From Trichobilharzia szidati (Eukaryota > Platyhelminthes > Trematoda > Strigeidida > Schistosomatidae), in the NCBI GenBank assembly GCA_944472155.2, contig OX235273.1, forward strand, positions 35,375,204 to 35,439,203: a stretch of 64,000 nucleotides of DNA, given 5' to 3'. The position numbers and the translations under genes were made by a program. The notes under the pieces were generated by a model. The model ran no database searches. It saw nothing but the letters and a program-made list of their open reading frames with translations, and was not told where the DNA came from. Positions 9,499 through 37,239 of the stretch are shown piece by piece. The stretch's first letter is position 1. Every line of letters begins with the position of its first letter.

Positions 9499-10368
9499 TC
9501 TTTTTATGCATTTATGCTACTAGTTTATTTATAGTCTTTAGGGAAGTAAGGGTATTTAAGCGCGTTTAAGGACTGTAGTAGACTAATAGTTGATTCGTTC
9601 TAGGAATAAACAGTTTATTTATATAGTCGGTAGAGTGAAATAGTCTTTTTATGCATTTATGCTACTAGTTTATTTATAGTCTTTAGGGAAGTAAGGGTAT
9701 TTAAGCGCGTTTAGGTACTGTAGTAGACTAATAGTTGATTCGTTCTAGGGATAAATAGTTTATTTATATAGTCGGTAGAGTGAAATAGTCTTTTTATGCA
9801 TTTATGCTACTAGTTTATTTATAGTCTTTAGGGAAGTAAGGGTATTTAAGCGCGTTTAGGTACTGTAGTAGACTAATAGTTGATTCGTTCTAGGGATAAA
9901 TAGTTTATTTATATAGTCGGTAGAGTGAAATAGTCTTTTTATGCATTTATGCTACTAGTTTATTTATAGTCTTTAGGGAAGTAAGGGTATTTAAGCGCGT
10001 TTAGGTACTGTAGTAGACTAATAGTTGATTCGTTCTAGGGATAAATAGTTTATTTATATAGTCGGTAGAGTGAAATAGTCTTTTTATGCATTTATGCTAC
10101 TAGTTTATTTATAGTCTTTAGGGAAGTAAGGGTATTTAAGCGCGTTTAGGTACTGTAGTAGACTAATAGTTGATTCGTTCTAGGGATAAATAGTTTATTT
10201 ATATAGTCGGTAGAGTGAAATAGTCTTTTTATGCATTTATGCTACTAGTTTATTTATAGTCTTTAGGGAAGTAAGGGTATTTAAGCGCGTTTAGGTACTG
10301 TAGTAGACTAATAGTTGATTCGTTCTAGGGATAAATAGTTTATTTTTATAGTCAGTAGAGTGAAATAG
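9499..10368 (-). repeat. six 145-bp tandem units spanning the end of a CR1-like ORF
   Basis: The string 'tctttttatgcatttat' recurs at 9499, 9644, 9789, 9934, 10079 and 10224, exactly 145 bp apart. On the minus strand each unit carries the last roughly two dozen codons of the adjacent retroelement ORF (ending 'NQLLVYYST' and a stop) plus its 3' UTR. Units 2-5 are essentially identical. Unit 1, farthest from the ORF, and unit 6, fused to the ORF, carry private changes. That pattern fits expansion of the inner units by unequal exchange, slippage or template jumping. Confidence 0.95.
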
Positions 10369-13300
10369 TGTGTACAGAGAGCGTTTGAAACTTAAAACTG
10401 TATTACAGTTCCTGATATCTAGGGGCAGATTGTTCCATATTTTAGAATACATGACTGTGAAGAAGTTTTCGCGGAGTGTTGACTTAAAGGCTTTTATTGT
10501 CACTGTGCAATTTTGGTTACGCAGATCGTAAGAGCCTTCTTGCGCGAATTGTATGTCCTTAATGTCTGAGAATGATATTTTGTGTAGGACCTTATAGAAG
10601 AATACTAGGTTTATAATTAGTCGTCTTGTCCAGAGTGGGTCAAGTTGTAGAATCTTGCAACGTGAGATGTAGTCTTTCTTACATTCGTAGCCTAGTAGTT
10701 TCGAGGTAAAATATCGTTGGATACTTTCAATTCTTAGCTTTTCACGTGTGTGAGTGCTGCTAATAATAAATGGACAGTATTCTAGTAGTGGCCTCACACA
10801 GGTTTTGTACAGAATGAGCTTTGCTTCATTGTCGTGAAAGTTCCTGAGTATGCATCCTAAGAGCATCCTCGACTTTTGAGTCTGTGATGCCACTTGCTCA
10901 GAGAATGTTAGGTTACTCGAGTACCTCAGACCTAGGTCAACGACACTTTGGAGTTTCGTTAGGTTAGCCGATTGAAGCGTTAACTTTATGTCGATTGAGG
11001 GTGCACCGAAGCAGATCCAGCCACATTTTTTAAGGTTAAATTGGAGGTTCCATAAAGACGACCAAGCAGTCACTTTATCTAGTTCTTCTTGTACAACATT
11101 CTGGAAGTACCCTAGGTCATCAGGTTGGAATGTATAAGCTACTTTGAGGTCATCTGCAAAGATGAATGGTTTACCATGAGTAAAGCAAGCGCATATGTCG
11201 TTAATATATAGGGTAAATAGAAGGGGTCCAATGACACTACCTTGTACTACACCAGAGGTGATTTGGCTAGGTTTCGAAGTTATAGATCCGAGTTTAACTA
11301 TTTGGGACCTATTGTTAAGGAATGATTTAAGCCATCCTAATAGCGGGTCACTTATTCCTAAGGATTTCAGCTTGTGCACTAGTAGTAAATGGTCGACACG
11401 GTCAAATGCCTTTGAGATGTCAAAGTAGATGACAAGTACTAGTTGTCGTCTGTCACGACTGCTGGTCACAAAGTTAAAGAAGTCTAAGTGGCATGTTAAA
11501 CAAGATCTGGATTTTAGGAATCCATGTTGGTTCGGACTTATAATATTGCAACTAAGCATATGCTTCATTAGGTTTTCTTTAACTAGTCTCTCCATAATTC
11601 TAGAAGCTATAGGTGTGATATTAATTGGCCTGTAGTTACTGACGTCTGTTTTCGAGCCAGATTTGTGTTTAGGCATGATAAACGTTGTTTTCCATACATC
11701 AGGGTAAGTTTGGGTTTCTAAGGACATTGTGAATATTTTAAGCAGGAGTAAGGGAATGTCAGGGCCACCATATTTATAAAAATAGGATGATATGCCGTCA
11801 GTACCGAAACCTTTTGAGCATTTTAGGGTTCTTATAGTTTGTTTAATGTTAGCATAGTTAAATTCAATAGTGCTAATTAAGTTTGGTGTGTGTGGAGATG
11901 GAGTTTGTGCCACATTAGTAGCAGGGTGTATATTGAGTAACTGGACTGTGGGCTTAAGGTAGTTACCTGCAAAAGTTGAGTTGAATAATTCACACATGTC
12001 TGCGGAATTAGTACATAGCCTACCTTTGTCTATGAGGAGAGAAATGCTGTGTTTTTTGCGATTCATTCGCTTCTTTAAGATTTCCGTGAGTGCATACACT
12101 CTAGCAGGACTGGCTACTGCGATGCGTTCTTCGTTCCTCATACGGAAATTTCGAGCTTGTGAGATGGAACTAAGGGTGTTAAGTATCAAACCTAGTGTGC
12201 CAAAGTCGTGGTGTTTGAAGTAACTTGTTGAGAGTTTCTTCAGTTTCATACGATCCTTTGGTTTTATGAATGACTTCCTATGTGGGGACAGCTCAAGTGT
12301 TTGCAGTGGAATGACAGCATCTAAGCATGTGTTCGAGTTATGGTAGAAGATGCTCAGAGCTCTCGAGAGGTCATCAGTAGTGAAGTATTCGCTCCATTCG
12401 GAGGATCTTAGCACTGATTCTACTAAGGTCCAGTTTGCCTTACTATAGTTCCTATATAGTACTTGTTGTGAAGTGGAGGTATGAGCTGCATTGCTATTCA
12501 GTGGAAGTGGCAGAGCACACATTACTGTTTTGTGGTCACTACCTGAAAACTTAGAACCCACTAAGATTGAGAGGGGGCTTATATCGTGACAGAATATTAA
12601 GTCTAGTACATTGTCACCTCTTGTAGGGATAGTGACAGTTTGTTTCCAGCCAAAAATGTCCAGTGTCCCTAAGAGCTTGTCGTATTTAGTTGGCCCTTTT
12701 AATAAGTCCCAGTTGATTTCGGGTAGGTTGAAGTCTCCACATATGATCTTATGCTCATATGGAAGAGTGGATACTTGCTCCAGTACATTTATAAGTTGTG
12801 TCTCGTAATCACTAAAGGTGCCAGGTGCTCTGTAGATACATCCTATTAGTAGTGTAGCACTTTTGAAGTGTACGTTGACCCACAGGGTGTCGTGCATGTC
12901 ATTGAGTTCCCTATTTTCTAGCTGTAATACAGTAAGTGTGTTCAGGAAGTACAGTAGGCAGCCTCCTCCCTTACCACTCTTCCTGTCACAGCGAAAGTGT
13001 ATGTACCCTTCGATGCTTATCTCTTCGTCTGGTATATTGGAGTGACACCAGGATTCCGTAATAATGATTATAGGGGGTTTGTATACCAGCGTATGTGCCC
13101 TGAGCATCGGTAGTTTGTTAAGGATAGATCTAGCATTAGTAAGTATTAAGTAGAGTTGAGATTTGAAGTAGTGTTTGAAGTGTTTAAGCTCGTCAATAAG
13201 GTTCAAGTGTGGATCGGCATCCGCTGTTTCCGCGTGGCATATCAACCCTGTGTTGCAACCAGTTTGTCCACCTATGTCTGTCAAGTTACTATCCATCTTT

Positions 13301-13392
13301 TTTAGTGGGTAATAGGTTTGATTATTAGATAAACTATACAATGACGTGGTTCTAGGCTTGGGTAGGTTGGAGACTTGGGTTGAGGTTTTCAT
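10291..13392 (-). CDS. CR1-like retrotransposon endonuclease-reverse transcriptase, intact ORF
   Basis: An unbroken 1033-residue ORF encodes the enzymes of target-primed reverse transcription. From about residue 82 an APE-type endonuclease is visible: 'LILTNARS', 'ITESWC', 'GGGCLLYF', 'IICGDFNLPEINW' and 'GSDHKTVM'. The RT follows with 'NYRPINITPI', 'YFDISKAFDRVDH', 'VVQGSVIGPLLF' and the catalytic box 'FADDLKV' (FADD rather than the usual YADD). The C-terminus carries 'YCPFIISSTHTREKLRIESIQRY', shortened here to its ends 'YCPFII' and 'SIQRY'. An ATG is present at 13392, but the natural start may lie farther upstream, since the preceding ORF ends only about 90 bp away. The ORF's last codons lie inside the 145-bp array. 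An intact frame suggests recent insertion; activity is not shown. Confidence 0.85.
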   Translation of the reverse strand: MKTSTQVSNLPKPRTTSLYSLSNNQTYYPLKKMDSNLTDIGGQTGCNTGLICHAETADADPHLNLIDELKHFKHYFKSQLYLILTNARSILNKLPMLRAHTLVYKPPIIIITESWCHSNIPDEEISIEGYIHFRCDRKSGKGGGCLLYFLNTLTVLQLENRELNDMHDTLWVNVHFKSATLLIGCIYRAPGTFSDYETQLINVLEQVSTLPYEHKIICGDFNLPEINWDLLKGPTKYDKLLGTLDIFGWKQTVTIPTRGDNVLDLIFCHDISPLSILVGSKFSGSDHKTVMCALPLPLNSNAAHTSTSQQVLYRNYSKANWTLVESVLRSSEWSEYFTTDDLSRALSIFYHNSNTCLDAVIPLQTLELSPHRKSFIKPKDRMKLKKLSTSYFKHHDFGTLGLILNTLSSISQARNFRMRNEERIAVASPARVYALTEILKKRMNRKKHSISLLIDKGRLCTNSADMCELFNSTFAGNYLKPTVQLLNIHPATNVAQTPSPHTPNLISTIEFNYANIKQTIRTLKCSKGFGTDGISSYFYKYGGPDIPLLLLKIFTMSLETQTYPDVWKTTFIMPKHKSGSKTDVSNYRPINITPIASRIMERLVKENLMKHMLSCNIISPNQHGFLKSRSCLTCHLDFFNFVTSSRDRRQLVLVIYFDISKAFDRVDHLLLVHKLKSLGISDPLLGWLKSFLNNRSQIVKLGSITSKPSQITSGVVQGSVIGPLLFTLYINDICACFTHGKPFIFADDLKVAYTFQPDDLGYFQNVVQEELDKVTAWSSLWNLQFNLKKCGWICFGAPSIDIKLTLQSANLTKLQSVVDLGLRYSSNLTFSEQVASQTQKSRMLLGCILRNFHDNEAKLILYKTCVRPLLEYCPFIISSTHTREKLRIESIQRYFTSKLLGYECKKDYISRCKILQLDPLWTRRLIINLVFFYKVLHKISFSDIKDIQFAQEGSYDLRNQNCTVTIKAFKSTLRENFFTVMYSKIWNNLPLDIRNCNTVLSFKRSLYTLFHSTDYKNKLFIPRTNQLLVYYST

Positions 13393-13481
13393 TTGGCTTA
13401 TGCTTGTGCAGTCTTTGGGTGTGACTAATAGTTCCGTGTGTACTAGCCCATGTCTGTTTTCTTCCCGGTAGGGGGCCGACG

Positions 13482-13994
13482 TTAGTGGTACGGGTTCAGA
13501 AGGGTTAACATCCCCACCAGCTGTTTGGTTAGCGCTGACAGGGATGTGTTGGATAAAAAATCATTGGTACCTTGTGATACCCATGACTTGTTAATCTGCC
13601 TACTGTGTGTGGACATTCCAAGAGACCTTACATGGGTGTCGTTATGTGCGTAGCTGCACTGTGGTTTGTTTCCCAGAAGGCTTGTTCCGTATAATCTGCC
13701 AAAGTTAGTTTGTATGTCATGCCTGGTGGCTGAGTTCCGAGTGTTGTCACTTTTACTACTTTGCGTGATAGCGTCACTACACCAGCTACCAGTGTGACTT
13801 GGCACAGTATGCAAGTAGGTTGTGTCGTTGTTGTCCTTGGGCTCTATGTCCTTATTTTTGTTTTTAGTTTGGTTGCTAGCATGGTTTTGAATATTATTTA
13901 CCTTAAAGCGTGAGATATTCTTGGGAGTCTGAATATGTTGGGGAATCTTCGCAACAAGTGGCGTATTTCGGCCTGTTTTGTTACAAAAGTACAA
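13482..13994 (-). CDS. possible ORF1 or 5' part of CR1-like element
   Basis: This 170-residue minus-strand ORF lies directly upstream of the EN-RT ORF and is rich in Asn, Ser, Thr and Lys. It has no catalytic motif that I recognise. Its place and strand make it a candidate ORF1 remnant of the same element, or the N-terminal extension of the main ORF separated by a frameshift. It contains no zinc knuckle. I cannot exclude that it is untranslated 5' sequence with a chance ORF. Confidence 0.4.
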   Translation of the reverse strand: MYFCNKTGRNTPLVAKIPQHIQTPKNISRFKVNNIQNHASNQTKNKNKDIEPKDNNDTTYLHTVPSHTGSWCSDAITQSSKSDNTRNSATRHDIQTNFGRLYGTSLLGNKPQCSYAHNDTHVRSLGMSTHSRQINKSWVSQGTNDFLSNTSLSALTKQLVGMLTLLNPYH

Positions 13995-21691: not shown

Positions 21692-21727
21692 TGCCCCTGA
21701 GTTTTCTACTTACACTATTTGGTGTTA

Positions 21728-22060
21728 ATGAGTACTAGTGGGAAGCATCTGTTTTATAGAGACAGAAAAGAATGGAATGACATTACTCCTGTTCCTCAAG
21801 ATGATAATGGTCGGCACATTGTAAATATAGCATATTCAGAAGAATTTGTTGACGCACATGATTATTTCCGTGCAGTTTTGTTAAAAAATGAACTTAGCGA
21901 GAGAACATTTTCTTTAACATCGGAGATTTTATTAATGAATCCTGCCAACTACACGGCTTGGGAATATAGAAGAAGAATCATCAAGGAAATTTCGCCAGAT
22001 CTTAATGCTGAGTTGCGTTTTGTGGGTGGCCTTATTGAAGAATATTCGAAAAACTATCAA
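21728..22060 (+). CDS. FNTA: protein farnesyltransferase/geranylgeranyltransferase I alpha subunit, exon 1
   Basis: The alpha subunit pairs with the FNTB or PGGT1B beta subunit to prenylate CaaX proteins in the cytosol. This exon gives residues 1-111. 'RKEWNDITPVPQDD' and 'AYSEEFVDAHDYFRAVL' match the conserved N-terminal region of FNTA proteins, and the first PFTA repeat is 'NPANYTAWEYRRR'. ATG at 21728 is chosen because the frame is closed by TGA at 21698 and the next residues already match the family. The exon ends in phase 0 at CAA|GTGAGT. The four exons sum to 396 residues, close to the human protein (379). Splice phases fit throughout and no break is seen, so this is a normal functional host gene. 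Confidence 0.95.
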
Positions 22061-23949
22061 GTGAGTGATTATATATATATATATCACAAAAGTGCTAAAT
22101 AATGCCACAGAATTAAGTGGGACAGCTTATTTAAGAAGAAAAATATTTCGGAGGTAATAGCATTAGTCACGAGAGTTTTGTGTACCGTGGATGACAAATT
22201 CTGTTTAAATTGCACAGTTTATGTTGACACTTCTTAACTGTGCAACTGTTATCACTATCATCAACGCTGGATGACGTCAGGTAATGAATAACATGAGAAA
22301 TGTTTCTGCTAAATGGATGTGAGCACTGCATGACTACTTGCATCTAACTGCAAATACTTGGCCTTACGCACTAACTTTGTTCAGGTGTATTGCTATGAAG
22401 TCGACTTTGCATTAGCAAACTAGGGAGTTCAGTTTTTTCGTGTCACTATAATTTGAGAGTAGCAATGCTTGCAGAATACTTAGGGTCACAATATCATATG
22501 AGATACTCGTGTTGTTGTTTCCGTACAGTATTTTATCTTAATATAAACAGCAGTGTGAAATTGGTCTTCACTAGCTTAATTATAGTTAGTATTCTTATGG
22601 CAATGTTTTCTTTTTGCAAAACAATTTAACAGTCTTCTTGTCTACAAGCGAAGAAAGTCAATATGGCATTTTAAACGTTATTGCATTAGTTAAGATAGCT
22701 ACACAGTAAAAAGAGGGTGAGCAGGTGAATACCAATGTTGAACCAAAAGAAGAAAAAGTTGCTGGGTTTCATGTCAATCTTTAAAATATCGAAGATATAC
22801 ATAAAAGAGTATATTAGTGTGCTTTAGTGCAGTTGATTTAGGCACACCTTATGAAGTCATTGATTTTTAATATTTTGTCTATATTTCAGCATAGTTAAAA
22901 GTATGTATAAGAAATTCTACAAATTGGTCGTATTAGTTCTTGTTCTTTCAATTTGATTTTGCTCTAATTAACATTATTCTTTGAAATATCACATTAATTA
23001 GGCATTGCTCAACACATCAGTTCTTCTAGTCATTTTGTGTTTAAAAATTCATTACTGAAAGTTCGTGAAACTGTAAACCTCGTCTCAGTTATGTATGTAT
23101 GTCTAGAGATCTAACAAGGGATTTGCTTAGTTTTTAGGATTTGTATTTGTCGAATTTCACTTAGGTTTCCCATAATAATAATACTAATAATAGTTGAGCC
23201 TAAAATTTTGGAATTTTCATTGATCACTCTACTGCCTTCGTAGTTATCACAGGATGATGAATATGTTTTATTGAACATTAAAGGCAGTCAAAAAGAATCC
23301 TGTGTGACTGCTAAGCATTAATCAATACTCCGTTTAATTTGATCGTTCAACTTTACACTTTACCTTTATATATTTATAAGGTGTGTCTGCTAGTAGATGC
23401 GCCCAATTTTAAATTTGTTCTCATCAACCTCCACTTATTAAGATTGACATTGTTCGGAGGTTAACATTCTAGATTTGACATATTTCTAATTTTAGGGTGT
23501 ATTTATATAAGAGATACGTAAAAATTCTCCTCGTATTCACCCTTTTTCCATTAGATTATTTGGTTCAGTGAGAAAATTCATTTATTCTCGTATTACACTT
23601 GTCGGGTGACAGTTGCAACCAGGTTCAATTTGGTGCTGACACTAGTAACTAATGTGACGTGTCTAGTCCTTTCTTTGGTGCAGACTGAATTCTATCGGTC
23701 AGGTTTGTTATGTGGCCACCATTCTAGGTAGCTCGCCATCACGGTGCACATTGATTTGATGATATTAGATAGTTGAAGGCAATCGGCCACAAGAAGCCTT
23801 GGACCTAGGTTTCGTGCTAGTTGGCACTCGTCAGCAAGGCGTATCTGCAACCCTTCAAGGTTGCAGGTTGTAGAAATTAAGATATTCTGACTGATCTAAT
23901 ACATGAATGCTTTGTAGAAATAATTTTATTGATTTCTTTTTCTTTGTAG
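22061..23949 (+). other. FNTA intron 1
   Basis: A 1.9-kb AT-rich intron with GT-AG ends. From about 23580 to 23900 it contains a dispersed repeat also seen at 57600-57900 (+) and 52190-52560 (-). No other feature is recognised. Confidence 0.85.
23580..23900 (+). repeat. dispersed repeat family R1, copy 1
   Basis: It shares 'ggtgcagactgaattctat' and the following 150-250 bp, including 'aggcgtatc' and 'gcaatcgg'-like pieces, with 57600-57900. The reverse complement of 52190-52560 is a more diverged relative. It lies inside FNTA intron 1 and has no coding potential in this copy. Confidence 0.65.
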
Positions 23950-26744: not shown

Positions 26745-26935
26745 TAGTGCGTCGGTGGCACAGTGGTTAGGACTCTCGCTGACCATGCACATGGTCCGGA
26801 GTTCGATCCCCTGCCGACGCATACCCGATATCTATGGTCGGCCTGCAAAATTCGGGCTACCGATGTCCATGCTGACAATTCCATACTTGTACTGAAAATA
26901 CGGTGTGGCATTAAGCTGTAATCAAAATAAAATAA
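26745..26935 (+). mobile_element. tRNA-derived SINE, family A, complete copy
   Basis: The head at about 26747-26821 is tRNA-like: arms TGCGTCGG and CCGACGCA can pair, with an A-box-like 'tggcacagtgg' and a B-box-like 'gttcgatcc'. The body ('gatatctatggtcggcctgc', 'aaaatacggtgtggcattaa') is shared with the minus-strand copies at 32010, 38525, 54465 and 60530. It ends in an A-rich tail (aaaataaaataaaa). Confidence 0.85.
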
Positions 26936-26955
26936 AAAATAATTGAGTTTTAAAT

Positions 26956-28134: not shown

Positions 28135-28700
28135 CCTTTAATTCCTAGAGGAACATAGGGCTTCAGCTGCACGTCTCCATTGCGTTCGGTTCTCTGCTAC
28201 AGTCTTCACCTGGCTCCACGTCTGCCCACATGCTTTCATCTCCTCTTCACATGACCTCCTCCAAGTCACCCTTGCACTGACGACCAACTCGCCGCTTCCC
28301 TTTCGGGTTCTACTCGAGCAATGGCTTGTCTAGTGATGTCACTTGATGGTTTGTTTTCTCAGAGCATGGCCAATCCATCTCCATTTCTTCCAGCCTATTT
28401 GTTTCACAATCGGTTCCTGGTTGGTTCGCTCCCAGAGATCCCTCCCTGTTGCTGATCCTTTCTGGCCATCTGATGTTGAGTATTGAGCGAAGACAACTGT
28501 TAATGAAGGTCCGTAGTTTGTTTGAGGTGCTCTTTATGACGCACCAAGTTCCTGATCCGTATAGTAGCACTGACTTCACATTGGAGTTGAAAATCCGGAT
28601 CTTATTTTTGATGCTGAGTGCTGTTAACCTCCACACAGACTTGAGAGAAATGAAAGCTTGTCTTGCTTTCCCTATCCTATTGTTGCTATATAGGCGAAGT
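28135..28700 (-). mobile_element. RTE-like 3' end (family B)
   Basis: The minus strand encodes the end of an RTE polyprotein: 'NKIRIFNSNVKSVLLYGS', 'RTFINSCLRSILNIRWPERI', then 'TDCETNRLEEMEMDWPCSEK' in place of the usual basic tail. The 3' end is marked by 'cctagaggaacatagggctt', a string repeated in related copies. It lies just downstream of FNTA and is 5'-truncated. Confidence 0.8.
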
Positions 28701-28869
28701 TAATTCGCACCTCTAAGAAAATTGACGCTTACATTGATATAATGAAACTCACTTCAGTTAGTGAGTTGGCTCAAATACTCTTCAATTAACTGTGTTATTC
28801 ATGACTAATTGTGGGAATCTGGTGTCTATGTTAAGTCGCTTAGATGATCGACATTATCAACAGGGATTA

Positions 28870-29215
28870 AATTTGACATTAAGCTCAGAATGTCTCAACT
28901 GTTTGTAGTGCAAGGGCTGATTGTGCCCATAAGCTCTAATTTCCTCCTCACACGATCTCCTGCATATCACATATGGACCCACAACTCCTTGTTTCCCTCT
29001 CGACAGTCTGATGCGGGACATCACTCAACGGTCTCCTCAGCGTGTGTGTCCGACTCATTTCCACCTTCTTCTGAAGATTTGTTGCGAAATAAGGTCTTGG
29101 AAACTTCACCACCAAAGTTTCATGTTCCTAGTTCTTTCTGGCTATCTGACGGTCAGTGTACATCGAATAAGGTAGTTATCTGCAGCCTGTTCGAAGTCCT
29201 CTAGGTAATGTGCTA
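28870..29215 (-). mobile_element. RTE-like 3' fragment (family B)
   Basis: It is similar to 28135-28700 and 44490-45010: 'tttcctcctcacacgatctc', 'catatcacatatggacccac' and 'cattccacct'-like pieces in the same order. It is degenerate and non-coding. A partial second copy of its first part recurs at about 29365-29413. Confidence 0.6.
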
Positions 29216-29413
29216 AGTCTCTGAACCATATATAGAAGAACTTACCCGACATTAAATTTGGAAATACGAATAATGTTCTTCATTCTGAGTGTATTAGATT
29301 TCTACATTGATTTCAAATTAATTAATTAATTAGTGAAGGTAGGTTTCGCATTTGTGATCCTGGATCTAATTTCCTCCTCACACGATCTCCTCCATATCAT
29401 ATATGGACCCACT

Positions 29414-29717
29414 GTAGGATTAATTTTACCTACAGATTTAGTCCTTCCGCTCAGTACTGACGACACAGAGTCTTGGCTTAACTATAGTTAAAAACAGAAT
29501 GACTTGACTTAAAGTTTATCTGTTTCTAAAACATAAAATAAATCATACAATTACACCAAGAAAAATATACAAATCCATTGTCATTCAAGAAAGGACAAAA
29601 ACGTACCGAACAGTATTGAGGAAACGGACAAAATGAACAGTTAATTAATTACATGTACACACAAATAAAGTGACAGAAAACAGAGGACACTCAAGGTCAC
29701 ATCACATGGTGTGAGTT
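29414..29717 (-). repeat. candidate 3' LTR of BEL/Pao element
   Basis: The segment directly downstream of the DUF5641-like ORF reads TGTAACTCACACC at its 5' end and ...AATCCTACA at its 3' end on the minus strand, giving TG...CA termini and about 304 bp. Its outer edge abuts RTE-B sequence at 29413. No matching 5' LTR is seen in the window, so the boundary rests on termini and position only. Confidence 0.4.
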
Positions 29718-29750
29718 ACATTAAATTGACCAATAATCGCGACAAAAAGG

Positions 29751-30120
29751 TCACATCATATTGATTGGCTCTCTATCATAAAGTCTATCTATCTGCGCGA
29801 TTAACACTCCCAGCGAACGATTACCAATTTGACTTCTCGTATCTGGAACTTTCAAGTTGTCTGCTTCTTCCAACAAACCTACGCTTCTTATATCTCGTTC
29901 GACTTCTTGAGTTGCAATTTTCAAACGCACCGCCCTGACGCGGCCATATTGGTCATAGTACACCTGCCTAACTATAGCCTTTGGCCAGAGACCTCTCGAT
30001 GTGTCAGTACTGTTAAGTAGGTTATATCCAACCATTTAGATCTTGCTTGCAGCATCGGAAGATATTCACGTAGCCATCTATGCCAGAACAAATCAGTTTA
30101 ATGTTGTGGAAGTAGTTGTC
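29751..30120 (-). pseudogene. BEL/Pao pol C-terminus (DUF5641-like)
   Basis: Around 30105-30060 one reads 'FWHRWLREYLPMLQARSKW', the signature that follows the integrase core in BEL/Pao polyproteins. After a frameshift the ORF 30035-29751 gives 'TSRGLWPKAIVRQVYYDQ' and 'GRVRAVRLKIA', ending near 'SVGLLEEADN', a DUF5641-type domain. The reading frame is disrupted at about 30108 (stop) and 30040 (shift). Confidence 0.75.
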
Positions 30121-30129
30121 TATAGGGTT

Positions 30130-32000
30130 GGAAGAAAGCACATCCATCTTTAGCATTCGTTGTACTTTTGTAATATTGTAATTTTCTTCAGAATTCACCG
30201 ATTGCTGGACGAGCCACAGTTAAAGGCTTTTTACGATCAAACAAAATACACAAATCAAGTGCATCGTCCTCACCGACTACTTCATCTATGCGTACCATAG
30301 AATCGTCAGCTTCAATCAAAACCCGTAGAATTGCATAACGAGCACAACACTGTGCTTGACGCCATGATCCAATGTCACCAGCATTTTCTGCTGGAGAATA
30401 GAACTCCATAGAAGTTACACCTGTACGAATCACTGACAACCAATTGTTATAGACTACATCTGGGACATCGCCTTGAGCACAGTCAGTATTCAAACCGAAT
30501 TGCTCCAGAACAAGAGGTAAATCAGATAAATAAATTCTAACGCACTCAGCTCGACACCCTTCTATTGCATAGGAAAGGTTTGAAAACTTGCTGTCATACG
30601 TTTCGCCTGGTTCATACCAACTTTTTACAGGACCTCCATTAATGATATCTTCAGTAGTTTTTGTGTCAAAATTTAGTTTTCCATCACAATCACGCTGAAA
30701 CAGTTTACCAGAACTATGTCCCAACAGTTCATGAATTCCAACTTGTAATTCAAAAGAACTTTTAGCGTGTTCCACGTACATTTGTTTGCCTTGATTACGT
30801 AGAAATTCTGATTTAGGATCCTTGAAACGAACACTAAGTACATTATCCAAAGAAACATTTTTAAATCCACCAACTTGTCGTACATCATCACAGTTAGCCA
30901 TATTAATTCCAACAGGAATTCCAGAAGTTGCAAACGTCACTACATCCAAACTAGTAAAGTCTGGTTGTAGGAATTTATATTTTTCATATGTAGAAGGCCA
31001 TGGTAAATTTGTTAACAACCTTTCAGCATTATCTACAAGTCGTTGGAATTTTGTTGACATTGATCTATTTACAACAGCGACAAATGATTCAAACTGCACG
31101 AACGCCAAAAGGATCACGGTATGACTCTATAAAACTCATATAGTTTTCAACAACAGAGTTCTTATCTTTAACCTATAACCTGGAGGCATCTTTGTGAGTG
31201 GTTACTGAGCCAGTAGTAAGGCTTTGAGCATACTGATGCCACATTTCTGATTCGATTTGGTTTAGTGAATGTGCTTTAGAATCTTTACAACAATCGACTA
31301 GTAACTTCATCAGCTCACTATAGTCACCATATTCAAGCTGCAAAGATGTGTCCGAGGGAAGGGTATCATAAGATATGGCTTGGACAGATTTCTCAGCTGA
31401 CGCAAACCGAAGGGAGTAAACTTCTGTTTTAGAGTCAGCATTTTTGAAAAGTCGTGTATTATATGCTTCGGTTTTTATACTTTCCAGGTTCTTTTGAATT
31501 AACTCTGTATCACTAGGAGTACAGCTTGCGGAATAGTGAGTTGTTATTTCAGTTGGACCGAATCCAAGGCGTAAACGACGGAAGCTTAATGAATATAGTG
31601 CAGGAGCTACTTCTTCCCACAAAGCTTTGAGACCTGTCTCCGGATTAGAAAACGCGCTATTCACTGATAGAAGCTCTGTTACTCTACTCAAAGTAATAGC
31701 TAGAACGAACTTGGTATCTCCAAAAGACAAGTAATTTCCAAAGTTGCCTAGAACTGATGCGAAGTACTACAGCAAGTGGTTTATCTCCTCCTCAGAAAAG
31801 TTCTTCTTTTTCGCTTCTTCAGTGAATGAATGCACATCTTGTGACCTGAAGAATCGATAAATAAATAGGAATATTCCAACAGATTCTGGGGATGTTTGAA
31901 TTAAACCAATCAGACCACCAACCCATGATGCTTGTGTGCAGCTGAAGACATAATCCTTTTCACTTTTACTAAGTGAACGGAATGCTTCGGTTATGTCAAA
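30130..32000 (-). pseudogene. DPP3: captured, intronless dipeptidyl peptidase III fragment
   Basis: DPP3 is a cytosolic zinc exopeptidase (family M49) that removes dipeptides from peptide N-termini. This segment matches it from about residue 17 ('DITEAFRSLSKSEK') to about residue 660 ('KLQYYKSTTNAKDG') without introns. The zinc motif HELLGH is intact near 30720-30700. The second motif reads EGCRAE instead of EECRAE, so the third zinc-binding Glu is lost by a single G for A change. In-frame stops lie near 31768, 31173 and 30188, and a frameshift within 'DPFGVRA' near 31095. About 80 C-terminal residues are missing and no poly(A) tail is seen. BEL/Pao coding sequence flanks it on the same strand. 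Confidence 0.88.
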
Positions 32001-32009
32001 ACAATTTTT

Positions 32010-32212
32010 TATTTATTTTTTTATTATTTTTATTTTGGTTACAGCTTGATGCCACACCGTATTTTCAGTACAAGTATGGCATTTTCAGCATGGATATCGG
32101 TAGCCCAAATTTTGCAGGCCGACCATAGATATCGGGTGTGCGCCGGCAGGGGCTCGAACCTCGGACCATGTGCATGGTCGGCGAGAGTCCTAACCACTGT
32201 GCCACCGACGCA
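32010..32212 (-). mobile_element. tRNA-derived SINE, family A
   Basis: Nearly identical to the minus-strand copy at 38525-38708 and related to 26745-26935. The A-tail is seen as the T-rich run at 32009-32036, and the tRNA-like head with 'ggctcgaacc' and the terminal 'gccaccgacgc' ends at 32212. It sits exactly between BEL/Pao RT sequence and the DPP3 segment, hiding that junction. Confidence 0.9.
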
Positions 32213-32214
32213 GG

Positions 32215-33360
32215 AGGTGGGACATTTACGTAGAAGTCCATACTACGAGAAAGAACAGGTTGCTTTGAAGTTTTCAATAAACTAACAGAACGAAAGTAAC
32301 GTGCTGCTGGCCAGAAGATGGACTGAAGGCGATGGAAATAAACCATGCAGTAAATCACAAGAGTAAAACCGTGACGGTGTGGCAAGTACCAAACCTGTCC
32401 ATCAACGTGATCCTCTTCGACCACTTCAGCGAATTCTCTTTCAATATACTGAGACATTGCATTAGTATACTCTTTGTACAGGTCTGAGTCTTGACAGAGG
32501 CGTTTCCTCAACGAACTGAGTCTACTCATCGCCAATTTTCTATTATTAGGTAAAATTTGTTGTCGACGCCATGGAAGTGCTATCTGATAATGTCCGTCAA
32601 CTAACTGTTTGGACTCTGACATAATATTTAGAGCCTTACGATCTTCAACAGACATGGGCACGTGACGACTCACATCGTCAAACTCATTGTTATAGAACCG
32701 TTCGAACATAGCCTCAATTTTTTCTGTAGCTAAGGTGTGATTTACCATGCTAGTTTCTCCGAGGGTTTTCCTGTATGGTCTCTGTAATGTCCACTCCAAA
32801 GGAGTCTTTATGGCACAAGGTTCGTTAGCTCCATCAAGCCTTTTATCGATCGTTATATGAGCTTCTGGCACGTTGCAGCCAATAAGCATCTTCATTTCTT
32901 CATTCTTAACCTCCGGTAAAACTATTTCATCCAGGTGACCCCATGAGGCCATCTGATCTGCTGTTGGTACAACTCTTTGTAACTGTGGCAACCTCTGTAC
33001 TGTCCATGCTTTCGAAACAGTAACATGAGGGGACGAATCAAACGGAGAGACTTCCAGTTCTACCTGTTTGCAAGACAAAGTGGATTGTGAACCAAGCGTC
33101 TTAAGGGAGACTGTCATAGTTGCTCCTACTAAACCTAATTCTCTTGCTAGATCTTCAGTGACCAGTGTTGCGTCTAAACCGCTATCCAAAAACGCACAGG
33201 TTTGAACAACATTACCATTATATCTGGCTAAAATGGGCACTATAGCGAATGCTGTCTCACTTGTCGGAAACTTGTGCAAAGTCATATCACTACGCTGTTG
33301 AGCGTTGATATGCACATCATTTTTTATATCGTCGGATAATCCATGGCTTCTGTGCAGCAA
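32215..33360 (-). pseudogene. BEL/Pao aspartic protease and N-terminal RT
   Basis: The minus-strand ORF begins after the zinc knuckles. The aspartic protease active site is 'FLDSGLDATLVTEDLARELG' (D-S-G). The RT entry region follows: 'GHYQIALPWR', 'LPNNRKLAMSRLSSLRKRL', 'YIEREFAEVV'. The next part, 'WYLPHRHGF' and 'WPAARYFRSVSLL', resembles the YLPHH...VVFDAA block with frameshifts. The catalytic YxDD box is absent because the frame is cut by the SINE and DPP3. Shortly after 'FYVNVPPP' the ORF runs into the SINE. Confidence 0.8.
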
Positions 33361-33379
33361 TGTGTGGTGTCTCCAACCA

Positions 33380-33555
33380 AAACCTTCAACTGTACAGGAC
33401 CTTGGAGAAAGACAATTTTTTGCTATATGATTTGCTTTTAAACAGACGTTGCATAGTTTTCTCTTGGAAACAAATGCCAGACGTTAATCTAGGTCTTTAT
33501 CTTTAAACTCCGAACACTGGTCTAGGAAATGTCCTCCCGAACATAATATACAGGG
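33380..33555 (-). pseudogene. BEL/Pao gag zinc-knuckle region
   Basis: The minus strand reads 'CSGGHFLDQC' and then 'CNVCLKANHIAKNC', a C-x2-C-x4-H-x4-C type knuckle typical of BEL/Pao gag, continuous in frame with the protease ORF. A TAA stop between the two Cys clusters near 33484 breaks the frame. Gag upstream of this is not recognisable. Confidence 0.65.
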
Positions 33556-33560
33556 TGGGA

Positions 33561-34045
33561 TAAATAAACGTGACTCATTCTTAGGACCATTATTCGGTTT
33601 TTCAGTAGCAATCACTCACATATTTCATACTTATATTACGTGAGCATATCTATCAGTTACAACAAATCCTGTCTATTCCAGTAAGTCATCACAATGCTGC
33701 CTATTATCTCCTCTTATGCCACCCTACCCTTTAGAATATGGTTGCGGATACTGTCTCAGCACCCTTACACATTTTCACTATGACCAGTGTACATTTAATA
33801 TTCAGGCCATTATGGTCAGTGCTACATATTGCAAATATACATATATCTCTCAACGTATTGCAAAGTTCTTTCTATTATAGCCTTTCTAATCTTATTAATA
33901 CTTGACTATGGATAGCCATTTCTCCTAATTGACTTAAGTGGACTTCGCTAAGGCAGGTAAATGGTGTTTACTAATTGGTTCTAGTAGACGCTAATTCCAA
34001 GTGGCCAAAGGTAGTGCCAATTACCCCATCTTCCAGTTGGGCAAT
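33561..34045. other. gap without recognised gene
   Basis: About 0.5 kb of non-coding AT-rich DNA between the BEL/Pao remnant and the Gypsy-like fragment. No LTR matching 29414-29717 was found here. Confidence 0.4.
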
Positions 34046-36235: not shown

Positions 36236-36404
36236 AACATACACTGTTCTGAATTTCTAGTTTCCCTTGTATTATATATAACATGATTAAGTTATGCGTA
36301 ACAGAAAATCATCCGTCAACACCTCATAATTAGCCGACATCAAAACAAAGTCTGCTTTAAAGTTAATTGAAACTTCAAGTATTGGTTTTGTAGGGATTTT
36401 GTTT

Positions 36405-37010
36405 GATTGCATGGAGGATTTCATCATGAGCTGATATCAGTTAGAGAACCACTGGAAAACCTGGGAGTACTGGACAGCTGTTTCGTCAACCTAGTTTGGG
36501 ACTCTTCAGCAATACACACCCACCGGGGTTTGAACCCAGGGCCTTCTGGTTACAAGGCAAGCTCGTAGACCATTGAACCACTGGGACGCAACCCGATGGC
36601 CCATGAATTTTAACTCCTGCCAATTCACAACATAGCGCGACTATTTCACAATGTCTTCTTCGATGAGCGTCCTGGGGTTCTTGTGCGAAGCCGTGACCAG
36701 CAGGGTACAGCAGGTTAAATATGAGGCAGTAACTCATCGAAGAACACATTGCGAAACGGTTGCGCTATGTTGTGAATTGGCAGAAGTTAAAATTCATGGG
36801 CCATCGGGTTGCGTCCCAGTGGTTCAATGGTCTACGAGCTTGCCTTGTAACCAGAAGGCCCTGGGTTCAAACCCCGGTGGGTGTGTATTGCTGAAGAGTC
36901 CCAAACTAGGTTGACGAAACAGCTGTCTAGTACTCCCAGGTTTCCCAGCGGTTCTCTAACTGATGTCAGCTCATGATGAAATCCTCCATGCAATTAAGTG
37001 AAACCATAAA
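36405..37010. repeat. head-to-head inverted pair of tRNA-like SINEs (family B), pair 1
   Basis: Arms 36405-36665 (-) and 36738-37005 (+) are near-identical reverse complements over about 260 bp, separated by about 75 bp. Each arm has a tRNA-like head facing the centre ('cccagtggttcaatggtcta', B-box 'gggttcaaaccccggtg') and a tail pointing outward ('aactgatgtcagctcatgat'). This is a large palindrome able to form a hairpin. Confidence 0.9.
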
Positions 37011-37239
37011 AACACAAAAACTGAATATCCTCACAATAGTGATAGGTTCCAGGATGGACAGTAGGGGAGAGAGTGTATTATGTTAGCTGCTCACCGATGA
37101 CCATAGATGAGTGTCCTAGCCCTATATCACTGTTATCGACTGAAGAAATTTAGAATCCACGGGTTATTCGATTGCCGAATTCAATATGATCAGTGATATG
37201 ACTTCATAGACTGAAGACTAAAAAGTTTGGAAGGAAAGA

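Follow-up and report, generated by a model that had tools for sequence, protein, structure and literature searches.

The stretch analyzed here, referred to as the window, comprises 64,000 nucleotides (nt) of the Trichobilharzia szidati genome (C3:35375204-35439203 of the searched assembly, 1.11 Gb in 907 contigs), and coordinates are given as positions within it. Its minus strand, from 33603 to 29413, carries a 5'-truncated copy of a BEL/Pao long terminal repeat (LTR) retrotransposon with an inserted host dipeptidyl peptidase III (DPP3) sequence. Read on that strand, BEL sequence is followed by a spliced leader (SL), a 5' untranslated region (5'UTR), DPP3 codons 1-647, the end of the BEL integrase and an LTR (Table 1). 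A BEL/Pao-DPP3-BEL/Pao order on one strand had been proposed in a first-pass annotation and was confirmed with the limits refined as above. DPP3 had been placed there at about residues 17-660; its presence stands, but the limits do not, as its start codon lies at 32241 and codon 647, in T. regenti numbering, is the last one retained.

The BEL part upstream of the insert was aligned by tblastn to the frame of a related genomic copy, L046 (88.9% of amino acids over 33603-32713), and to the predicted protein P0128 (32709-32212). Its reverse transcriptase (RT) entry is 86% and 85% identical to BEL copies at C2:94442850 and C3:62960569, respectively, and the protease gave only a weak Pfam match (E 0.0029, below cut-off). 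Within the insert, the predicted protein P0125 matched at 90.1% (32006-31095) and 90.7% (31099-30101) in tblastn searches, and Pfam recognized Peptidase_M49 twice (E 2.7e-107 and 5.9e-27). P0125, P0126, P0127 and P0129 begin at the same DPP3 start as the window, and the match to a query covering the N-terminal half of DPP3 (N-half) begins at codon 11. The description of DPP3 as intronless held at one parental boundary, before codon 622, but a repeat resembling a short interspersed element (SINE) after codon 10 had been overlooked; an inverted copy of it lies at 26748-26942 (92%).

Downstream of the insert, the FWxRW/DUF5641-like terminus and candidate LTR expected from the first reading were both recovered. 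Integrase end and LTR together are 85.4% identical in nucleotides, over 733 columns, to the uncaptured BEL 3' end L053, and the LTR is 89.2% identical over 399 columns to the 3' LTR of L034, a young LTR of the family. As also proposed, the RT core, RNase H and most of the integrase are replaced by DPP3, which is apparent from the domains of the window and from the BEL copies. The window copy is a defective BEL/Pao derivative that lacks the full domain set of this group (gag zinc knuckle, protease, RT, RNase H and integrase with DUF5641 end), and it is dead, old and decayed, as shown by in-frame stops and frame changes in DPP3. No 5' LTR was found in the window and no gag N-terminus in its copy; since the 5' LTR is missing, the copy's own target duplication cannot be read.

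Table 1. Features of the BEL/Pao-DPP3 element, listed in its reading direction.
Feature	Position	Strand	Basis
BEL/Pao part: gag end, zinc knuckles, protease, RT entry to LPH	32379..33603	-	tblastn
Spliced leader of the captured mRNA	32344..32378 (approx.)	-	30-nt core at 32373-32344
DPP3 5'UTR	32242..32343	-	parental gene match
DPP3 start codon and codons 1-10 (MDFYVNVPPP)	32212..32241	-	ATG at 32241
SINE-like repeat inside DPP3 after codon 10, then A-rich stretch	32018..32212	-	inverted copy
DPP3 codons ~11-647; parental intron upstream of codon 622 missing	30101..32009	-	tblastn of P0125
8-nt CACAACAT at the DPP3-to-BEL switch	30101..30108	-	common to parental DPP3 (L051) and BEL (L053)
BEL integrase C-terminus (FWHRW, DUF5641)	29807..30100	-	Pfam DUF5641, E 4.2e-05
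3' LTR, TGTTAATCGCG...CCTACA, TG...CA ends	29413..29806	-	family LTR match

The origin of the insert could be read from its 5' end, which the first-pass annotation had not noticed. The 102 nt upstream of the start codon match the host DPP3 5'UTR; when the initial codons and a single G on the left side are included, they are 96% identical over 131 nt to the parental gene, and they start immediately 3' of the parental splice acceptor ...CCTATTTGTAG. Directly upstream of the 5'UTR, the window reads ACCGTCACGGTTTTACTCTTGTGATTTACTGCATG. A 35-nt pattern, composed of the 30-nt leader core and a GTAAG donor, had 53 perfect matches in the genome (reversed control, 0), 51 of them on C6, and the core in the window differs by 1 nt from the genomic SL exon core. 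The first leader bases in the window (ACCGT) were assigned from the full S. mansoni leader. An Rfam search over the leader returned a single chance-like match (E 4.3, below gathering). An S. mansoni leader primer printed in PMC5832876 ends in CTCTTGTGATTTGTTGCATG. The 51 SL exon and GTAAG matches on C6 extend over C6:10981062-11052470 with a spacing of mostly about 1.13 kb, which is likely an SL-RNA gene cluster, and one more match each was located on C1 and C8.

The same join of leader and 5'UTR recurs in a second copy carrying the DPP3 N-half, at C6:56524180; this copy and the window were the only non-parental places matched by the N-half query (4 matches from 5 candidates). Parental DPP3 codons 1-223 lie at C3:47016589-47017257, and the parental last exon at C3:47000541, on that strand as well and at a distance of about 16 kb. 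That exon is preceded by a stop codon and by ...TTTAG, an intron end missing from the window copy at the boundary before codon 622. Because leader and 5'UTR stand at the parental acceptor and the parental intron end is missing, the captured template was a mature trans-spliced mRNA. A second DPP3 last exon with its intron boundary was observed at C3:143900491-143900721, where that part of C3 gave no match to the N-terminal sequence; it probably represents a partial host gene duplication.

The genome also contains uncaptured BEL sequence that has this LTR and covers the two junction regions, and both joints were compared with it. At the RT entry, uncaptured BEL copies on C2 and C3, the only two places from the RT-entry and integrase lists read as DNA at this joint, have TTGCCACATCATCCGGTTTTCC (LPHHPVF, continuing into RT), whereas the window has TTGCCACACCGTCACGGTTTTAC and turns into the leader at, or within 1-2 bases of, the leader 5' end. 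At the DPP3-to-BEL joint, parental DPP3 (L051) reads CCACAACATACTAAATTG, BEL (L053) reads GCACAACATTTGGCTGATTTG and the window reads CCACAACATTAAACTGATTTG, with CACAACAT common to the three. DPP3 runs straight into BEL after codon 647, with no poly(A) tail at its 3' end in the window, in agreement with the earlier statement that it lacks both its own C-terminus and a tail. The insert is therefore whole, or almost so, at its 5' end and cut short at its 3' end, which is the reverse of what an L1-type copy shows.

A search of the genome for further copies, as had been advised, showed that the DPP3-BEL joint recurs, and it was read in DNA at 6 distinct non-window places. Amongst predicted proteins, which are gene models that may skip sequence as false introns, the BEL-to-leader joint was found in T. 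regenti P0123, P0128 and P0132, and the DPP3-to-BEL joint in T. regenti P0001, P0121 and P0123 (cut short there) and in T. szidati P0005. An artefact of assembly or collapse might be suspected in a region this rich in repeats, but its probability is close to nil: the joints recur in T. regenti predicted proteins, the C6 copy has the same leader-5'UTR join, and at least 126 other DPP3 matches exist in the genome. It was rejected on these grounds.

The complete 5' end, the missing 3' end and the lack of poly(A) point to two template switches rather than to an L1-type retrocopy. We hold with high confidence that the window contains a decayed BEL/Pao copy in which a host SL-bearing DPP3 mRNA replaced the RT core and most of the integrase, most likely by two such switches. 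Minus-strand synthesis would begin on packaged BEL RNA, the reverse transcriptase would jump at CACAACAT into a co-packaged DPP3 mRNA, synthesis would run to the capped 5' end of this mRNA, and the enzyme would then return to the BEL template at the RT entry; we infer this order of events. Template switching onto a host mRNA had been suggested at the outset, and it gained support from the leader and 5'UTR, the 8-nt identity, the intron loss at one boundary, the missing poly(A) tail, the uncaptured BEL sequence and the recurrence of the joints in T. regenti proteins. None of the findings named beforehand as speaking against capture was seen, as there is no intron at the tested boundary, DPP3 runs directly into BEL and the join recurs.

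The alternative that a processed DPP3 copy made by a long interspersed element (LINE) landed in a BEL element, which subsequently carried it, was also considered. L1-type copies are characterized by poly(A) at the 3' end, are often truncated at the 5' end and have target duplications flanking the insert. The window copy, in which leader and 5'UTR are kept and the 3' end is missing, does not have this form, and an L1-type processed retrocopy was rejected. A LINE with RT and endonuclease domains does exist in the window, and reverse-transcribed trans-spliced transcripts are described in PMC12582326 as carrying the leader into genomes. Against these points stand the leader and 5'UTR, the 3' truncation at codon 647 leading straight into BEL, the BEL stretch that has disappeared between the joints and the 8 nt common at the 3' joint, so that we regard a LINE origin as very unlikely.

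The window copy belongs to a larger family, whose abundance and youth the first-pass annotation did not detect. At least 127 DPP3 matches were found in the genome (127 scored among 345 candidates), 126 of them outside the window; this count and the RT-entry and integrase counts below are lower bounds among the matches listed. Open frames of at least 1,350 amino acids (aa) contain 41 of the 126 non-window matches listed, 39 of which are stop-free in the match. Twenty matches, partly selected for long frames, were fetched as long stretches, and the fetched set comprised 42 distinct places, window included (50 records minus 8 repeats). Spectrin, likewise missed before, is also present at 38 of the 41 distinct non-window places (no spectrin was found within 1.5 kb at L015-L017), and among the 42 places the DPP3 N-half occurs only in the window.

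In these relatives, alpha-spectrin repeats stand mostly upstream of DPP3, which in turn stands in place of RT and the integrase core. L034 exemplifies the typical frame, which has a length of about 1,385 aa, with gag N-terminus (31-131), spectrin (132-867), DPP3 (868-1289) and integrase end (1290-1385). The spectrin part of this type contains seven Pfam spectrin repeats and aligns, in collinear order over 673 residues, with the erythrocytic alpha-spectrin chain 8iah; it would have been acquired in a later capture. Another arrangement was observed in L032 and L046 (C4), where gag, zinc knuckle, protease, partial spectrin, DPP3 and integrase end are joined in frames of 1,592 and 1,634 aa, which suggests recombination between element forms. 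Pfam identified M49 and DUF5641 together in T. regenti P0001, P0121 and P0128 and in T. szidati P0005, and spectrin repeats also in the T. regenti proteins P0121, P0123 (E 2.9e-05, below the curated cut-off), P0132 and P0134. P0128 has the architecture of the window: gag, zinc knuckle, RT entry, leader-coded LPHRHGF, DPP3 and integrase end.

LTR pairs were detected by a filter in 16 of the 20 long stretches at 99.0-100% identity (five at 100%). Their 5-bp target duplications, read by eye, are exact in 15 of the 16 copies and agree at 4 of 5 bases in L048. L033 and L050 had no LTR pair by the filter (the L033 frame includes a run of unread bases), and L046 and L047 are tandem units. The BEL/Pao hallmark of a TG...CA LTR with 5-bp duplications is thereby seen in two parts, the LTR in the window and the duplications in related copies. 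The chimera family appears from these data to be both abundant and young. That the copies might instead be a duplicated host gene family is suggested by some of them standing in tandem at about 4.49-kb spacing, yet such units are expected from LTR-LTR recombination. Paired LTRs with 5-bp target duplications in 16 dispersed copies, and the existence of BEL sequence with an integrase and the same LTR, led us to reject this alternative as extremely improbable.

BEL relatives are also present in the genome. The RT-entry query matched at least 24 places besides the window and the C6 copy, at 62-89% over at least 91 of 108 residues (150 scored), and the integrase query at least 14 places at 72-88% over at least 230 of 332 residues (121 scored); in one relative on C2, both matches lie in frames of equal length, 1,780 aa. 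The 3' ends of the window copy and of four chimeras, LTR included, are 85-90% identical to a BEL 3' end that has an integrase. Because the LTR is shared and RT is missing, the chimeras were likely moved in trans by BEL relatives bearing the same LTR.

The history of the capture was examined with a protein tree of 297 DPP3 positions, which included the window, 34 T. szidati copies, 6 T. regenti proteins (several of these rows partial) and host DPP3s other than that of T. szidati. All element sequences formed a single clade (support 100) beside the T. regenti host DPP3 and outside Heterobilharzia and Schistosoma. Within this clade the window branches first (100), and the next split separates T. 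szidati copies (83 with L017, 100 without) from T. regenti copies (84). The simplest reading of this tree would be that DPP3 was captured once in the Trichobilharzia lineage, ahead of the species split, and was then amplified separately.

Whether the spectrin-DPP3 protein is a selected working product, for example a new structural or virion protein, was evaluated from the ratio of nonsynonymous to synonymous polymorphism (pN/pS). The frames are open, with 16 stops in 15 of the 127 listed matches as compared to about 0.7 expected per copy (neutral simulation scaled to 303 codons), and the gag start had a pN/pS of 0.49 versus 0.64 under neutrality. However, among 14 copies of the same architecture, purifying selection on the captured protein was not detected, as pN/pS values of spectrin (0.72), DPP3 (0.74) and integrase end (0.89) were not below those of the neutral simulation (0.63, 0.67 and 0.63). 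The window compared with 16 copies over 301 codons gave 0.66-0.81 (neutral 0.68, 5-95% 0.48-0.98), with differences spread evenly over the three codon positions and 0 stops versus 3.1 expected, in frames that had been chosen open. Additionally, the zinc motifs are lost. HELLGH and EECRAE contribute ligands in peptidase family M49; HELLGH is kept in the window but in none of the 49 non-window locus records (41 distinct places), while EECRAE is intact in 0 of 50 records, with EGCRAE in the window and the EE pair retained in one record (EECQTE). An active M49 peptidase would carry both motifs, and a selected working product seems unlikely.

The frames seem to stay open while their amino acids are apparently unconstrained. 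The frame may be kept open during replication with amino acids free to change, and its product would be a passenger or spacer, not a working peptidase. Our broader proposal, which we offer tentatively and at somewhat less than even odds, is a self-spreading vehicle for host cDNA that made two successive captures (SL-DPP3, then alpha-spectrin) and came to outnumber its BEL relatives. Its single long frame, about 84% host in origin, would be under selection for openness alone, and the host protein would serve as a translatable spacer by which the RNA stays in a cis pathway to packaging.

Several observations weigh against the interpretation given here. The BEL-leader joint has little microhomology right at the change point. 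After CACAACAT the window continues with TAAACTG and the BEL copy L053 with TTGGCTG, and at the second parental last-exon locus (L052) the common part is CAACAT alone, with TAAACTG two bases later; due to these differences, the switch itself may have taken place a few nt further on. The reading of parental DPP3 covered its 5' end and last exon, which limits the intron loss seen to one boundary, and spectrin would be taken as cDNA on the strength of a 736-codon frame, its parental gene not having been located. Finally, the copies were ranked by similarity and some were picked for long frames, which makes the stop deficit partly a matter of ascertainment.

Other features of the window were recorded as well. 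A 48-nt repeat recurs across 28234-29412, with its copy at 29365-29412 stopping exactly at the LTR end, and the element was likely inserted inside such a repeat. The LINE occupies 10294-13560 on the minus strand as one open 1,089-aa frame with the endonuclease and reverse transcriptase domains. An exon-like stretch on the plus strand (21701-22099) contains a protein prenyltransferase alpha subunit repeat (PF01239), and a 290-nt inverted repeat, 92% complementary with a 65-nt spacer, lies at 36378-37022.

Host gene capture by LTR elements is already known, above all from maize Bs1. Bs1 has an LTR structure, lacks RT and is present in low copy number. Its chimeric gene contains pieces of three host genes, according to a review (PMC13317346). 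The fluke element resembles Bs1 as an LTR-bounded element that carries host gene pieces without RT, and its relatives have host cDNA between LTRs with the cis sequences of the element kept (both LTRs, gag start, spectrin and DPP3). It differs from this low-copy plant element in being an animal BEL/Pao element with at least 127 DPP3 matches, a series of architectures and a leader at the captured 5' end. In transducing (acute transforming) retroviruses, host mRNA replaces replication genes via template switching and a helper is needed. The fluke element shares with them a host mRNA in place of replication genes, probably by template switching, and a likely need for a helper, but no signalling advantage is evident, no env was seen and copies are shared by two fluke species.

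A mosquito retrotransposon, taken as BEL/Pao, captured a chuvirus-type glycoprotein, as reported in PMC7642597 and PMC10084718. Gene capture by an LTR element is common to both cases, but the mosquito element captured a viral gene, whereas in the fluke element host housekeeping mRNAs replace pol. Spliced leaders in genomes outside SL-RNA genes have been explained by reverse transcription and integration (PMC12582326); the fluke leader lies inside an LTR element at the BEL joint instead of in a LINE or free retrocopy. No report of this element, or of spectrin/DPP3 capture, was found by title and abstract start in open-licence literature on flukes, BEL capture and LTR gene capture. New features are the membership in BEL/Pao, the serial arrangement of two host genes, the high animal copy number and the leader at the joint.

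By the time gene capture by a retroelement is recognized, its joints have usually long become indistinct. In the present case a single genome contains the two donors, the two switch regions, the leader marking the template as a mature mRNA, and graded descendants, which makes a copy-choice model of retroviral gene capture testable base by base. For annotation, the predicted T. regenti spectrin-M49 proteins look like transposon products and not host genes. Altogether, these observations describe an animal BEL/Pao lineage that acts like transforming retroviruses and maize Bs1, at high copy number.

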